This document shows positions 32,325 to 40,161 of a stretch of DNA of 64,000 nucleotides, piece by piece. Both the position numbers and the translations under genes were made by a program. The notes under the pieces are model-generated. The model was given only the letters and a program-made list of their open reading frames with translations. It was not told where the DNA came from and did no database searches. Source of the DNA: Flagellimonas oceanensis. Its GTDB lineage: Bacteria > Bacteroidota > Bacteroidia > Flavobacteriales > Flavobacteriaceae. Positions within the stretch are counted from its first letter, which is position 1; each line of letters opens with the position of its first letter. The stretch is taken from the NCBI RefSeq assembly GCF_003992595.1, contig NZ_RZNA01000040.1, positions 1 to 64,000 on the forward strand, in the 5' to 3' direction.

Positions 32325-32365
32325 GCTTCTGAATGTATTGTTTTTAGGGCAGTTTAGAGTTTGGT
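32325..32365 (+). repeat. 41-bp direct repeat, left copy
   Basis: 41 bases identical to 40121-40161, same orientation, starting GCTTCTGAATG and ending AGAGTTTGGT. The two copies bracket the slipin/tRNA-like array/rtcB/WYL module 7.8 kb apart. Possibly an integration or recombination duplication. Confidence 0.9.
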
Positions 32366-32443
32366 TAATTAGTTATGGAATGCGAAATAAGGTTTTGATT
32401 GTGAGGTAGTTGTGAATACTTCTTTCTTCTATTCATCGCTTAT

Positions 32444-32476
32444 TATAAAAAATGCGCCAACTCTCGCAGGCGCATT
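32444..32476 (-). terminator. Intrinsic terminator of slipin gene
   Basis: On the minus strand AATGCGCC-tgcgagagtt-GGCGCATT followed by TTTTTA; 8-bp stem, just downstream of the slipin stop. Confidence 0.85.
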
Positions 32477-32481
32477 CCATT

Positions 32482-33582
32482 TTACTTGTTGACAGAGAAG
32501 ATCTCTTTCAATTGTTTTACCATACCCCCGTTTCCAGAGACGGTGATCTCACCGATTTTTTCGGCAATCTTTTCAACGTATTCCATCTCTTTTAACTTGA
32601 AGAGCATTTCGTTTTCTTCCATCAGCTTTGCTGTGTTCAGCAAGCTTCGGGTAGAAGCGGTCTCTTCACGACGGGTAATGATATTCGCTTGGGCTTTCTT
32701 CTGTGCCACCAAAACTTGGTTCATGATATCTTTCATTTCCCCGGTAAGGATCACGTCTCGGATACCACAGTTCAAAACGGTCACCCCTAGTTTGGTGGCC
32801 TCGGTTTTGATGTCGTCAAACACTGCTTCCGCAATGCTCTCCTTGCGTTCCAAAAGCTCATCCAAGCTGTATCCACCTACATAGGCACGCAATACAAGTT
32901 GCATGGCAATGTAAAGCTGCTTCTCGTAGTCCTTGTTTTCCAAAAGCGCTTTTTCAATATCGGTTACTTTATACTGTGTATAAAAGTTGATACGAACGGC
33001 GGCTTTGTCCTTGGTTAACAATTCCTGTCCGGCAATCTCCAATTGCAATTGGCGCATATCCGCCTTTGCAATTTTAATGGTGGTGTCGTTCTTCCAGAAG
33101 CGATAAGTACCAGCCGCAAGGGTTTTGGCATACACATCGTCAACCAGCATAATGGCCTTTTCATATGCTGCCACTTCGAACAAACGGATGTATTGGCTCA
33201 ATTCAGGTCGACTTAACCAAGAGGTATCGATTTCCTCAGTGATTTCAATCTTGCTGCGGTCCACGCTAATGAACTTGTAGTCCAAGAGATTTTTCCAGAA
33301 GAAATACCTACCTACGGTAAGCACCTGCTTGAAATTTCCGTTCTCAACGACCACGGCCAATTCGTTGTCCTTGACCTCGACCACATGAAGCATTGCCTCC
33401 AATCGTTCATCCTCAAGCAAGATCTCTGCTGCTATTGGGGCTGCAAAAGGTCTTGTAAGGTCGTATTGGACCAATTGTTCATTAAACCCTAACCAATAGG
33501 TTCCTTGGTCAATCACTCGTTTGTAATCTCCCTTTTTAAAAACCAAACCTACTTTTCCCGCATTGATTCTTACTCGTTTCAT
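32482..33582 (-). CDS. Slipin / band-7 (SPFH) family protein
   Basis: 366 aa from MKRVRINAG (33582). N-terminal ~150 residues are beta-rich without a clear membrane helix (GLVFKKGDYKRVIDQGTYWLG, VGRYFFWKNLLDYKF). The SPFH core follows (LLTKDKAAVRINFYTQYKVTDIEKAL, LVLRAYVGGYSLDELLERK, LGVTVLNCGIRDVILTGEMK), then a helical tail (QANIITRREETASTRSLLNTA). SPFH proteins form oligomeric scaffolds. Slipins have been noted next to RtcB-type RNA repair genes, and here rtcB lies 4 kb upstream in the same module. A longer start at 33618 lacks conservation-like features. Confidence 0.85.
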   Translation of the reverse strand: MKRVRINAGKVGLVFKKGDYKRVIDQGTYWLGFNEQLVQYDLTRPFAAPIAAEILLEDERLEAMLHVVEVKDNELAVVVENGNFKQVLTVGRYFFWKNLLDYKFISVDRSKIEITEEIDTSWLSRPELSQYIRLFEVAAYEKAIMLVDDVYAKTLAAGTYRFWKNDTTIKIAKADMRQLQLEIAGQELLTKDKAAVRINFYTQYKVTDIEKALLENKDYEKQLYIAMQLVLRAYVGGYSLDELLERKESIAEAVFDDIKTEATKLGVTVLNCGIRDVILTGEMKDIMNQVLVAQKKAQANIITRREETASTRSLLNTAKLMEENEMLFKLKEMEYVEKIAEKIGEITVSGNGGMVKQLKEIFSVNK

Positions 33583-33999
33583 TTTTTTAACATTTTTAAT
33601 TAAACAATCATTGGACACAAGGCCTGTTGTGGCTTTGCTAGCTTAGGATATCCGCTACGGGTACCGCATTTATCCCAAGAGTATTTTTAGTTGATTCATT
33701 TCGTATTAAAAAACAGTGGATACAAATCATCCGTCCACTACGGAAACCCGACCATTGCCAAGTTCCAAGACCAGTTTTGAGCAGTGGGCCAAATTGGGAT
33801 TCAAGTTGCAGGGCAACTGGTGTATCCAAATGGGCTGACCACAAAAAAGTGAACCCTTTACTTGACAATGCATTCAGGTTTCAAGGTACTTTTCAGATTG
33901 TTACATGTCCTTTTGGACATCCAACAGATCTGCATGCACTGTTTTTTGCCAATTTTACAGCGTGACAGGCTGGGGACCAGTTTTACAAGATGGTCGGCT
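33583..33999. other. Gene-free stretch between slipin gene and tRNA-like array
   Basis: No convincing coding region. A perfect hairpin ATGTCC-ttttg-type (ACATGTCCTTTTGGACATCC at 33903-33922 on the plus strand) and a GTTG/CAAC hairpin near 33806 are present. On the minus strand fragments reminiscent of T arms (CAACTTGAATCCC) suggest further decayed tRNA sequence but cannot be folded into cloverleaves. Confidence 0.5.
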
Positions 34000-34068
34000 T
34001 TGGTATGGTTGTTTAGGCCATAATCCTACGTTAAAAGCGTAGTGCTCTACCAACTGAGCTATCTCCTG
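34000..34068 (-). pseudogene. tRNA-Lys(TTT)-like remnant
   Basis: D arm GCTC-AGTTGGTA-GAGC and anticodon arm CTACG-CTTTTAA-CGTAG (anticodon TTT) are perfect. The T arm is replaced by TATGG-cctaaacaa-CCATA (9-nt loop without TTC) and there is no 3' acceptor strand matching the 5' end. Last recognisable unit of the array; overlaps the 3' end of the previous unit by about 2 nt. Confidence 0.6.
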
Positions 34069-34135
34069 GGAGGGAGAGCGGGAGTCGAACCCGCGACATC
34101 CACGTCTGTTGTTCTGACCCCTGAACTATCCCAAA
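34067..34135 (-). pseudogene. tRNA-like unit with shortened anticodon region
   Basis: T arm GCGGG-TTCGACT-CCCGC and D arm GTTC-AGGGGTCA-GAAC are perfect, and CCA follows the discriminator. Only 16 nt lie between D arm and T arm instead of about 23, so no normal anticodon arm can form (best is GAC-gtggat-GTC). The acceptor stem is only partly paired. Non-functional in translation as it stands. Confidence 0.6.
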
Positions 34136-38899: not shown

Positions 38900-38990
38900 T
38901 GTATTTCTTTTTTAAGCTCCGTCGACTCCTCGTTTGACGGAGCACTACTGATGAGTCGGATAGACTCTTATGATTCCATACAAAGATTTC
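38900..38990 (-). other. Structured 5' leader of rtcB
   Basis: On the minus strand two hairpins precede the rtcB start: GAGTC-tatcc-GACTC and GCTCCGTC-aaacgaggagtc-GACGGAGC. They would lie in the rtcB 5' UTR. Role unknown. Confidence 0.5.
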
Positions 38991-38991
38991 A

Positions 38992-39022
38992 TTACTACTG
39001 CGCAAACATTTTGCGTAGATAA
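38992..39022 (+). promoter_or_regulatory. 31-bp inverted-repeat motif in rtcB/WYL intergenic region
   Basis: TACTGCGCAA-acattt-TGCGTAG between the divergent rtcB and WYL genes; second copy at 34572-34602. Position suggests an operator for the WYL regulator controlling both directions. Confidence 0.6.
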
Positions 39023-39056
39023 AATAATTCGTTAGTTTTCTATAAAAATAATAGGA

Positions 39057-40076
39057 ATGGCCCTGAATAAGAATGCACTCATAAGATATAAGACCATTGA
39101 TAAATGTTTACAGAACAGCTATCGTCAATGGACCTTGGAAGATTTGATAGAGTCATGTTCGGATGCGCTTTACGAGTATGAGGGAAGGTCTGTCAATGTC
39201 AGTAAACGTACAGTACAGTTGGATATTCAAATGATGCGCAGCGATAAATTGGGCTACAATGCACCCATAGTGGTTTATGACAAGAAATTTTACCGTTATG
39301 AGGACGAGGATTATTCCATTACGGATATTCCCTTGAATGAAAATGATATGAACGTACTCACTGAAACCGTGGAAATGCTCAAACAGTTCAAAGATTTTTC
39401 ACTCTTTTCGGAACTTGGTGGAATTATACAGCGATTGGAGGATAAGGTGTATACGGAGAAAACACATAGGTCTTCCATCATCCATTTGGACAAGAATGAA
39501 AACCTGAAAGGCCTTCATTGGTTGGATGAACTATATCAGGCCATACAAAAAAAGATTGTGCTCAAAGTGGAGTATAAATCCTTTAAGGCCATCGAGTCCA
39601 ATGTAATCACCTTTCACCCATATTTGTTGAAGGAGTTTAACAATCGTTGGTTTCTGATTGGGATGGGAAATAAGAATAGGGGAGTGGTAAACCTTGCTCT
39701 TGATCGAATTATTGCTTTGGATTATGACTTCAACATTTTGTATGAAGAACATGATTTTGATGCGGATGACTTCTATAAGGATGTTGTTGGAGTTACTGTA
39801 AGCAGAGGTCGTCCTTCAGTTGTAAAGTTATGGATAGACAGCCATAATGCTCCATATGTTGTCACCAAACCCATACATCATTCGCAAAGATTTGTCAAGA
39901 AACACGAAGATGGTAGCATTGAGATTACTTTTGTTGTCAAACCCAATTTTGAATTGGAACGTTTGTTATTGGGGTTTGGAGATTCATTGGAAGTTATCAA
40001 ACCCAAAAAATTGAGAAACCGAATTGCCGATAAGCTGGCAAATGCTGCAGATAGATACAGCAAAGAAACTGCTTGA
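39057..40076 (+). CDS. WYL-domain transcriptional regulator of the rtcB module
   Basis: 339 aa. N-terminal winged-helix DNA-binding region (ALIRYKTIDKCLQNSYRQWTL to NVSKRTVQLDIQMM), WYL domain around residues 150-235 (KIVLKVEYKSF, FHPYLLKEFNNRWFLIGMG) and the C-terminal WCX extension (GRPSVVKLWIDS, EITFVVKPNFELERLLLGFG). WYL domains are thought to sense nucleic-acid or nucleotide ligands; an RNA-damage signal is an attractive guess here. Divergent from rtcB with a conserved inverted repeat between them. Confidence 0.9.
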   Translation: MALNKNALIRYKTIDKCLQNSYRQWTLEDLIESCSDALYEYEGRSVNVSKRTVQLDIQMMRSDKLGYNAPIVVYDKKFYRYEDEDYSITDIPLNENDMNVLTETVEMLKQFKDFSLFSELGGIIQRLEDKVYTEKTHRSSIIHLDKNENLKGLHWLDELYQAIQKKIVLKVEYKSFKAIESNVITFHPYLLKEFNNRWFLIGMGNKNRGVVNLALDRIIALDYDFNILYEEHDFDADDFYKDVVGVTVSRGRPSVVKLWIDSHNAPYVVTKPIHHSQRFVKKHEDGSIEITFVVKPNFELERLLLGFGDSLEVIKPKKLRNRIADKLANAADRYSKETA

Positions 40077-40120
40077 TTTTTCTGGACTTACTTTAATTGG
40101 GTGAAACAACAGTAGTTTTA

Positions 40121-40161
40121 GCTTCTGAATGTATTGTTTTTAGGGCAGTTTAGAGTTTGGT
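40121..40161 (+). repeat. 41-bp direct repeat, right copy
   Basis: Identical to 32325-32365. Lies 44 nt after the WYL stop, marking the right edge of the module. Confidence 0.9.

Follow-up and report, generated by a model that had tools for sequence, protein, structure and literature searches.

How bacteria detect the cutting of their tRNAs by toxins or defence nucleases is a largely open question, and it is raised by a compact gene cluster of Flagellimonas oceanensis (assembly GCF_003992595.1, contig NZ_RZNA01000040.1). Within the stretch of 64,000 nucleotides (nt) analysed here, called the window below, genes for an RtcB RNA ligase, a slipin, a TPR protein and a divergent WYL regulator stand together with an array of tRNA-like units between positions 32325 and 40161. 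A sequence-only reading of this DNA had listed the same genes, which the open reading frames (ORFs) and Pfam searches bore out, and had proposed that the array serves as decoys or sensors for anticodon nucleases; it did not register the two leader ORFs and their terminators (36432-37046), nor a pair of palindromes resembling operators (34579-34598 and 38999-39018). We propose, with a probability of roughly 0.6, that stalling of ribosomes for lack of almost any tRNA would lead to antitermination and hence to replacement tRNAs, with an arm under the WYL regulator supplying RtcB and a slipin-linked RNA. The evidence computed for this proposal consists of the order of genes and RNAs, its recurrence, the amino-acid coverage of the leaders, the geometry of the attenuators, the specificity of the operator and the covariation of the RNA.

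The TPR gene (35794-36336, minus strand; Pfam TPR_19, E = 4.7e-7), whose product has a Lys-rich tail, has its stop codon about 14 nt ahead of the first tRNA of the array, and the gene and the array are together preceded by two leader ORFs on the same strand, with an intrinsic terminator after each. Leader A (MKNTKAHSKPGALFSQCDYRWILELSSRKGRDVSSCESILY, 41 codons, 36898-37023) follows a promoter-like sequence found by eye (TTTCATGCATATTTGCA, 37030-37046), which we take to resemble Bacteroidota promoters; it contains an antiterminator strand at 36925-36936 and is followed by a terminator at 36841-36870 (GCGTCC...GGGCGC and a T-run). Attenuators of the trp/his type comprise a leader ORF, segments that pair as 1:2, 2:3 or 3:4 and a terminator with a T-run, and their known leaders favour one to three amino acids. 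Leader B (MLLYQSCFKSRLLSERSFRKLRFFP, 36496-36573) has this classic layout, with segment 1 (CGAAGC, 36575-36580) before the start codon, antiterminator segment 2 (GCTTCGG, within 36502-36514) near the end of the ORF, and a terminator at 36432-36474 that includes segment 3 (CCGAAGC, 36465-36472) and segment 4 (TTTCGGA with a T-run, 36439-36448). When transcripts truncated before segment 4 were folded with a ribosome footprint of 15 nt on either side, the 2:3 antiterminator of attenuator B formed when the ribosome stood at any tested codon from 3 to 15 and was lost from codon 18, and that of attenuator A formed with the ribosome at codons 4-24 and was lost from codon 26. Two hallmarks of attenuation are thus present, namely a short ORF before an intrinsic terminator and a mutually exclusive antiterminator near the end of the leader; the third, control codons concentrated in one or a few amino acids, is replaced by its opposite, as the coverage counts below show.

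The arrangement recurs in other genomes. A profile built on an alignment of nine TPR sequences found 102 relatives in a contig collection representing 84,980 species, of which the best 80 were kept as loci with up to 10 kb of flanking sequence either way, or less where a contig ended; by their record names, the relatives belong to Flavobacteriaceae or to higher taxa containing this family. Among the 80 loci, a slipin was found in 54, tRNAs called by ARAGORN in 50, this RtcB in 39 and a WYL regulator in 38; in addition, 31 had the release factor PrfH, 23 a further RtcB and 6 RlaP. The conserved order runs from the TPR gene through the tRNAs to the permuted RNA and slipin, and the position of rtcB varies, before the TPR gene in some loci and after slipin in others. 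A strong orthologue of the window RtcB was present in 5 of 71 same-genus genomes (G000-G070), and matches at E ≤ 0.001 in 32 of the 196 genomes searched; in the 20 neighbourhoods fetched from the 23 strong matches in other genomes, WYL was found in 18 and TPR in 8, and the TPR family is a better marker of the array than RtcB. The sequence-only reading had staked itself on an array conserved beside rtcB; the association of the module recurs across the 80 TPR loci, and, this test survived, we regard the linkage of slipin, tRNAs, RtcB and WYL as real and recurrent. The geometry of segments 2-4 of the B type was found in 70 cases in 68 of the 80 loci, with the antiterminator 12-22 nt before the end of the stop codon in 67 cases (41 at 12-13 nt) in a census that counted antiterminators up to 22 nt before the stop, and segment 1 (CGAAG near the start codon) accompanied 35 of the 70 cases compared to 6 of 210 control windows. 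Nine loci that carry the second rtcB with prfH (L070, L084, L093, L109, L112, L116, L120, L122 and L128) also have leaders of about 20 codons upstream, with the same GCGTCC terminator and, in several, a second leader of the GCTTCG type after it.

The amino-acid content of the leaders sets them apart from known attenuators. Leader A contains all 20 amino acids within its 41 codons and 19 of the 20 within the 25 codons before the antiterminator (P = 0.0004). One rule, ORFs of 30-50 codons ending before a terminator, was applied to 82 loci and yielded 58 leaders upstream of the TPR gene or the array with a mean of 18.26 distinct amino acids (12 with all 20 and 28 with at least 19), compared to 15.85 (none with 20 and two with at least 19) in 92 control ORFs that precede terminators at other places in these loci; several of the 58 look like the tails of longer genes (e.g. 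L066, L072, L109, L120 and L128) and were kept in these counts and in both redundancy tests given below. Windows of 40 residues from real proteins contain all 20 amino acids in 0.14% and at least 19 in 2.7% of cases, and the other reading frames of the leader DNA gave means of 15.4-15.7. Relative to the protein windows, the leaders were strongly enriched in Cys (83% vs 23%), His (95% vs 54%) and Trp (57% vs 33%), with no enrichment of Thr or Val. In the sensing part, L054 and L059 reach 20 of 20 amino acids in 25 codons, a result seen in 0 of 20,000 null windows; the P value combined over eight loosely separated groups was 4.6e-13, which is optimistic because most leaders are related, and the test includes the ORF of L075 (15 amino acids, P = 0.66), which is probably over-extended. 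A loose filter (4-mer overlap below 10%, with some leaders still visibly related) retained 29 leaders with a mean of 18.24 against a null of 15.79 (SD 0.26), and one leader per strict single-linkage group, two of these groups being gene tails, gave 17.19 against 15.80 (SD 0.54), reached in 3 of 2,000 null draws. Leaders about 35% identical to a leader with all 20 amino acids retained 18.5 distinct amino acids, where random replacement by drift predicts 16.8 (157 non-independent pairs, leaders beginning with four named gene-tail sequences being left out), which points to selection acting on coverage rather than on sequence.

In leader B of the window, all 14 sensing codons are read by tRNAs of the array, the four interrupted ones included (expected fraction 0.47, P = 2.8e-5), and its counterparts in close sisters match at 12-13 of 14. 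Measured relative to background ORFs, the amino-acid content of leaders and arrays correlated with rho = 0.47 (P = 0.04). A general rule by which leader composition mirrors the array was considered and rejected, as most lineages other than that of the window lie near expectation.

What lies behind these leaders is, judging from its sequence, a spare tRNA set. The interval between slipin and the TPR gene contains 14 tRNA-like units, all on the minus strand, so that the array itself stood and the earlier count of about 15 was lowered by one: seven are intact (called by ARAGORN), four interrupted (recognized by alignment with sister loci), one degenerate and two circularly permuted (the last three recognized by their T-arms). 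Eight stretches reach the Rfam gathering score for tRNA. ARAGORN and Rfam agree on tRNA-Arg(ACG) at 34620-34693, tRNA-Gln(TTG) at 34826-34898, tRNA-Leu(TAA) at 34900-34974 and tRNA-Leu(TAG) at 34978-35052, both with a short variable loop, tRNA-Lys(TTT) at 35058-35131 and tRNA-Asp(GTC) at 35493-35566, and ARAGORN adds tRNA-Ser(GCT) at 35402-35490. The interrupted units are tRNA-Phe (34695-34823, T-loop, element at about 34712-34767, from aligned intact orthologues and the element match), tRNA-Glu (35137-35261, anticodon loop, antisense element at about 35173-35228, a 56-nt loop insert by cmscan), tRNA-Cys (35274-35396, T-loop, element at about 35291-35339) and tRNA-Tyr (35643-35780, anticodon loop, element at about 35690-35744), the last two from sister alignment and the element match. 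The degenerate unit, with a long insert, lies at 34322-34560 (limits by eye) and was recognized in a T-arm scan by its T-arm at 34348-34364. Two sister genomes preserve the order Tyr-Asp-Ser-Cys-Glu-Lys-Leu-Leu-Gln-Phe-Arg, so the array is more than chance; the sister loci L033 and L034 each have 11 intact tRNAs in one shared order, and the array of L035 has 20 tRNAs covering 17 amino acids. Outside the module, the host has a complete housekeeping set of 37 tRNAs with 33 anticodons for all 20 amino acids, to which the seven intact array tRNAs are at best 58-72% identical when compared with housekeeping tRNAs for the same amino acid. The array thus shows what a functional spare set would show, tRNA folds and plausible anticodons with a full housekeeping set alongside. 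Some of its anticodon loops also differ: for Asp, CUGUCUC in the array of the window lineage and of L035 against CUGUCAC in the housekeeping tRNA, and for Glu, CUUUCUA in the sister arrays and L035 against UUUUCAU. Phage tRNAs with changed anticodon loops have been predicted to resist anticodon nucleases (PMC10264068), and the changes in the array, compared here by sequence alone, recall them. A replacement role would fit these tRNAs better than a decoy role. The view that the abnormal units form a designed decoy set had to be given up, because the four interrupted units have intact Tyr, Cys, Glu and Phe orthologues in the sister loci, where they are ordinary tRNAs.

The second arm of the module comprises rtcB, slipin and the regulator, with slipin, the TPR gene and rtcB on the minus strand and the WYL/WCX gene divergent on the plus strand. 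RtcB (37523-38899, minus strand; Pfam PF01139, E = 6.9e-36) has the domain profile together with motifs for the metal-binding Cys/His residues and the GMP-accepting His: GDGNHF, HHGSRG, HAKGAT and HGAGR align with the solved RtcB 4dwr, and a DICCS block aligned to 4dwr solely within a non-significant stretch. The regulator (39057-40076, plus strand) matches the Pfam families WYL and WCX. The genome of 4.27 Mb contains exactly two copies of the palindrome CTACGCA-N4-7-TGCGYA, both inside the module and on the minus strand, one upstream of the slipin RNA (34579-34598, CTACGCA-N-TGCGCA) and one between rtcB and the WYL gene (38999-39018). In nine further RtcB-bearing genomes, all 19 listed matches (15 sites, some of which match on both strands) lay near the rtcB module, with one genome having none, and a reversed control pattern gave 3 matches across the ten genomes. 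The palindrome therefore stands out as a candidate operator that probably binds the WYL protein. Detection of cleaved tRNA by the WYL protein, as first suggested, found no support in the analysis, which identified its likely operator alone, and the regulator was dropped as a demonstrated sensor; the attenuator pair, rather than WYL, looks like the sensor of tRNA loss.

Several further features were seen around rtcB. A hairpin (GCTCCGTC...GACGGAGC) lies in the rtcB leader (window 38900-38990), and a similar one follows the palindrome in L035, L036, L038, L039 and L040 by eye. The small ORF after rtcB (37116-37577, minus strand) has no Pfam or NCBIfam match and occupies a cargo slot that varies, with a leucine-rich repeat protein in L033 and DUF3825 in L034. 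At L036:15698-17419, a PhyH (dioxygenase) domain is joined to the WYL regulator, and WYL ORFs of 573-577 amino acids in L037-L040 suggest the same fusion. tRNA-like genes beside rtcB (L041:9002-9110, L042:9018-9127, L038:7157-7268 and L035:17839-17949) have the anticodon loop replaced by a structured motif, ACUUUYCGC-n-GGCAnAnAAAGU-UCCUAUA, which recurs by eye in permuted form in tandem hairpins before a gene for a protein of 584-624 amino acids; together they are possibly a new ribonucleoprotein with autoregulation. The L041 member of this protein group (C5) has no Pfam or NCBIfam match, its PDB matches are at E = 0.087 or worse, and a PADLOC match to Cas11e (E = 0.0073) was taken as chance.

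The slipin gene (32482-33618, minus strand; SPFH/Band_7, PF01145, E = 2.4e-30; homologues start at an ATG near 33582) encodes a protein 97-98% identical in L033 and L034, and is linked to a structured RNA of about 300 nt (34000-34318, minus strand), which combines a conserved 5' domain with the two circularly permuted tRNA-like units, whose T-arms lie at 34078 and 34145. A near-full-length nhmmer match to this RNA was present in all 54 slipin loci, starting a median of 725 nt ahead of the slipin match. In an alignment of 34 sequences chosen from these matches, 93.8% of the cells were paired, compared to 78.5% when shuffled and 36-41% when slid, and 26 of 45 pairs showed double changes, including 5 of 5 pairs in the first acceptor helix and 3 of 5 in the first anticodon helix. 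Two short helices of the hand-drawn structure paired poorly, one in the second acceptor stem (47%) and one in the second D-arm (39%), probably on account of alignment gaps. The RNA possesses the permuted tRNA-like module of Y RNAs (T-arm, acceptor hairpin and D-arm), and the expectation that a tRNA-mimicking Y RNA would accompany rtcB was thus borne out in part: a YrlA-like portion is present at 34011-34116, and its score of 39.9 bits is below the Rfam family cut-off of 69. No Ro60/Rsr (TROVE) match was found among the module proteins scanned in the window. Near two of the modules, a Flavo-1 RNA was also seen (L036:11330-11401 and L040:3278-3360).

The interrupted Tyr, Cys, Glu and Phe units all contain one and the same element of about 50 nt, whose copies are pairwise alike in one orientation (each at no more than 1 in 1,000 shuffles), the Glu copy being inverted. 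A profile iterated on its own matches was run across about 1.6 Mb, made up of the 80 TPR loci, L035 and the window (L124 and L125 being near-duplicates), and gave 37 matches at E ≤ 0.05 in 19 loci, the window included, and all 37 lay between the TPR gene and slipin or, on contigs without slipin, near the last tRNA; three weaker matches outside arrays (L098, L057 and L105, E = 0.065-0.69) fall beyond the E line of 0.05. The intron mode of ARAGORN joined many neighbouring tRNAs and was left out of these counts. Copies in T-loops have one orientation and lie directly 3' of GGTTCGAA (flanks by eye), and copies in anticodon loops have both orientations and lie at AAA or TTT (by eye); the only antisense T-loop copy called by the script (L073) proved to be an anticodon-loop copy. 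By eye, two copies occur in the Ser(tga) unit of L101, L124 and L125. The simplest reading of the element would be a mobile mini-element. In a bolder version of the proposal, the leader covering the whole amino-acid alphabet would be a universal tRNA-integrity sensor gating the replacement set, and the first class of attenuator of this type, and the inserts would either be removed by loop cleavage and RtcB sealing, in effect protein-dependent tRNA splicing in a bacterium, or act as cleavage bait. We consider this combination very improbable, and the occurrence of both orientations in anticodon loops speaks against ordinary splicing.

These parts can be assembled into a mechanism. A ribosome completing the leader would cover the antiterminator strand, so that the terminator forms, whereas a ribosome stalled earlier would leave that strand free to sequester the 5' arm of the terminator, and transcription would proceed into the TPR gene and the spare tRNAs. 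Because the codons of leader A call for every amino acid, 19 of the 20 before the antiterminator, the loss of nearly any usable tRNA would be expected to trip it, and leader B in the window lineage would sample the codons served by the array's own tRNAs. Through the palindrome, the WYL regulator would govern both rtcB and the operon of slipin and the permuted tRNA-like RNA. Divergent replacement tRNAs would come from the array, and RtcB would reseal cleaved RNAs. We infer that tRNA cleavage is what causes the stalling, that the array tRNAs are charged and used, that the WYL protein binds the palindrome, and that slipin and the TPR protein have roles in this response.

A number of observations weigh against this proposal. 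Complete leaders fold to the terminator at every ribosome position tried when equilibrium is assumed, so antitermination must be kinetic, and segment 1 is missing in 35 of the 70 B-type cases. The rule that defined the leaders was not blind, having been set once the leaders of all 80 loci had been inspected, and strict single linkage reduced them to seven groups with 44 of the 56 distinct leaders in one, so coverage may in large part be shared by descent. The agreement of leader B with its array is confined to the window lineage (4/14 in L065, 6/14 in L066 and 8/13 in L101), the pooled permutation test of codon matches (0 of 5,000) is driven by related loci, and the direct correlation of leader and array amino acids is weak (rho = 0.38, P = 0.11, 19 amino acids). 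Four of the 11 array tRNAs of the window are interrupted, and its tRNA-Leu lack the long variable arm of housekeeping tRNA-Leu, which may impair their charging. A looser form of the palindrome was found within 160 nt of the WYL start in 19 of 38 loci, and in 30 of 54 it lay no more than 900 nt ahead of the slipin RNA. Finally, amino-acid starvation would trip the same sensor.

This last point leads to an alternative that shares the attenuators with our proposal and differs in the trigger, namely a general response to starvation or antibiotics, in which the leaders sense any elongation block and the island raises the tRNA supply with no natural nuclease trigger. We hold it possible, at clearly less than even odds: a leader spanning all amino acids cannot distinguish cleavage from starvation, and in Anabaena, according to PMC10272220, translation inhibitors lift the TrcR repression of a gene set that includes rtcB, the slipin gene alr0740 and an operon of 26 tRNAs, but the linkage to RtcB (39 of 80 loci), PrfH (31) and sometimes RlaP (6) points to RNA breakage, and a shortage of amino acids is not cured by extra tRNAs. 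It is unlikely that the array instead works as a decoy, its units, the interrupted ones above all, occupying anticodon nucleases and being recycled by RtcB. That idea would be in keeping with the divergence of the tRNAs and the altered anticodon loops of some, with the structured inserts that 19 loci carry in anticodon and T-loops, with the adjoining RtcB and with the suggestion in PMC7790460 that YrlA acts as a competitive inhibitor; however, the sister arrays consist of ordinary tRNAs, arrays of 19-20 tRNAs are what a replacement set would lead one to expect, and induction upon tRNA loss suits replacement more than pre-emptive decoys.

Two further explanations appear improbable to us. If the leader ORFs encoded a functional small protein, with their amino-acid diversity incidental or merely inherited, this would agree with their similar length and ATG start, with the relatedness of most of them (44 of 56 in one group) and with motifs such as CDYRW kept in some families; yet coverage exceeds the drift expectation as the leaders diverge, the conserved residues towards the end of the leader fall on the antiterminator strand, and, by eye, the window and L035 retain GGACG in different frames. 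The array might also be a decaying collection of captured tRNA genes, for example from phage, with no present role, an idea to which we give little credence: the four interrupted tRNAs, the patchy presence (a strong RtcB match in 5 of 71 same-genus genomes), the flanking direct repeats and the recombinase genes beside the module in L033 and L034 are as it would predict, but arrays recur in many genera with the TPR-array-slipin order and with apparently dedicated regulation. On balance, a replacement tRNA set released by stalled leader translation remains our preferred reading.

The module is bounded by a perfect direct repeat of 41 bp, with copies at 32325-32365 and 40121-40161 (plus strand), whose outer limits coincide with the ends that the sequence-only reading had given it and which has just these two copies in the genome with up to 3 mismatches allowed. 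Insertion of the module is likely, because four relatives are collinear with the right flank from 40187-40190 onward and differ on the left; for the same reason, these relatives, sharing the right flank and not the left, did not serve to demonstrate mobility through an empty site. No transposase gene was seen in the module of the window, and a related recombinase gene lies near the WYL end in both L033 and L034 (Pfam being run on the L033 copy). The RNA-damage island is probably transferable. To the left of the module (28133-32249), a gene for a small Cys-rich peptide, an ABC transporter and an HlyD protein resemble a bacteriocin-type export cluster (HlyD by Pfam and the remainder by eye), and a TPP riboswitch scored 71 bits at 5791-5883 of the window.

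Among described systems, part of the module probably has a precedent, as Burroughs and Aravind reportedly described in 2016 RNA-repair systems with SPFH/Band-7 proteins in which a tRNA-like RNA partners the Band-7 protein near RtcB, an account that probably covers the slipin and its RNA; to our knowledge, neither spare tRNA arrays nor leader peptides, an operator or loop inserts form part of it. A literature search by title and abstract, in a collection with few subscription papers, returned nothing relevant on leader-peptide attenuation with RtcB, and within the literature searched the pan-amino-acid leader, the union of the parts in one island and the element inside tRNA loops appear to be new. 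The features that we single out are the pan-amino-acid leaders, the slipin-linked permuted tRNA RNA and the element of about 50 nt in tRNA loops. A leader peptide covering the whole alphabet, if true, would be a simple universal detector that makes a dedicated receptor unnecessary, and the module links chromosomal tRNA arrays to RNA repair and provides a directly testable regulatory rule. Compared with trp/his-type attenuators, the window leaders share the segment scheme, but their codons call for nearly all twenty amino acids and the genes behind them are for tRNAs and RNA repair.

RtcR, which binds tRNA halves, is a described case of sensing cut tRNAs, and its rsr-yrlBA-rtcBA operon, induced by tRNA damage, likewise joins RtcB to a tRNA-mimicking RNA (PMC7790460). 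In the window, by contrast, no rtcA, Rsr or RtcR was seen in the module (no RtcA among the module ORFs scanned), slipin replaces the Ro protein, WYL replaces the sigma-54 CARF activator RtcR, and a tRNA array and attenuators are added. Phage tRNA sets (PMC10264068) are similar in that they add tRNAs with changed anticodon loops, offered to take the place of host tRNAs that have been cleaved, whereas the window set lies on the chromosome, is linked to RtcB and appears to be regulated. Closest among the described cases is the TrcR set of Anabaena, in which, as far as the accessible text of PMC10272220 goes, a multi-tRNA operon, rtcB and a slipin gene form one repressed set responding to translational stress, with no mention of a leader peptide in that text; there the genes are scattered, the repressor is of the ribbon-helix-helix type and the 26 tRNAs lie on a plasmid, whereas the window unites its genes in a single island with a WYL regulator, leader-peptide attenuators, a TPR protein and a permuted-tRNA RNA.

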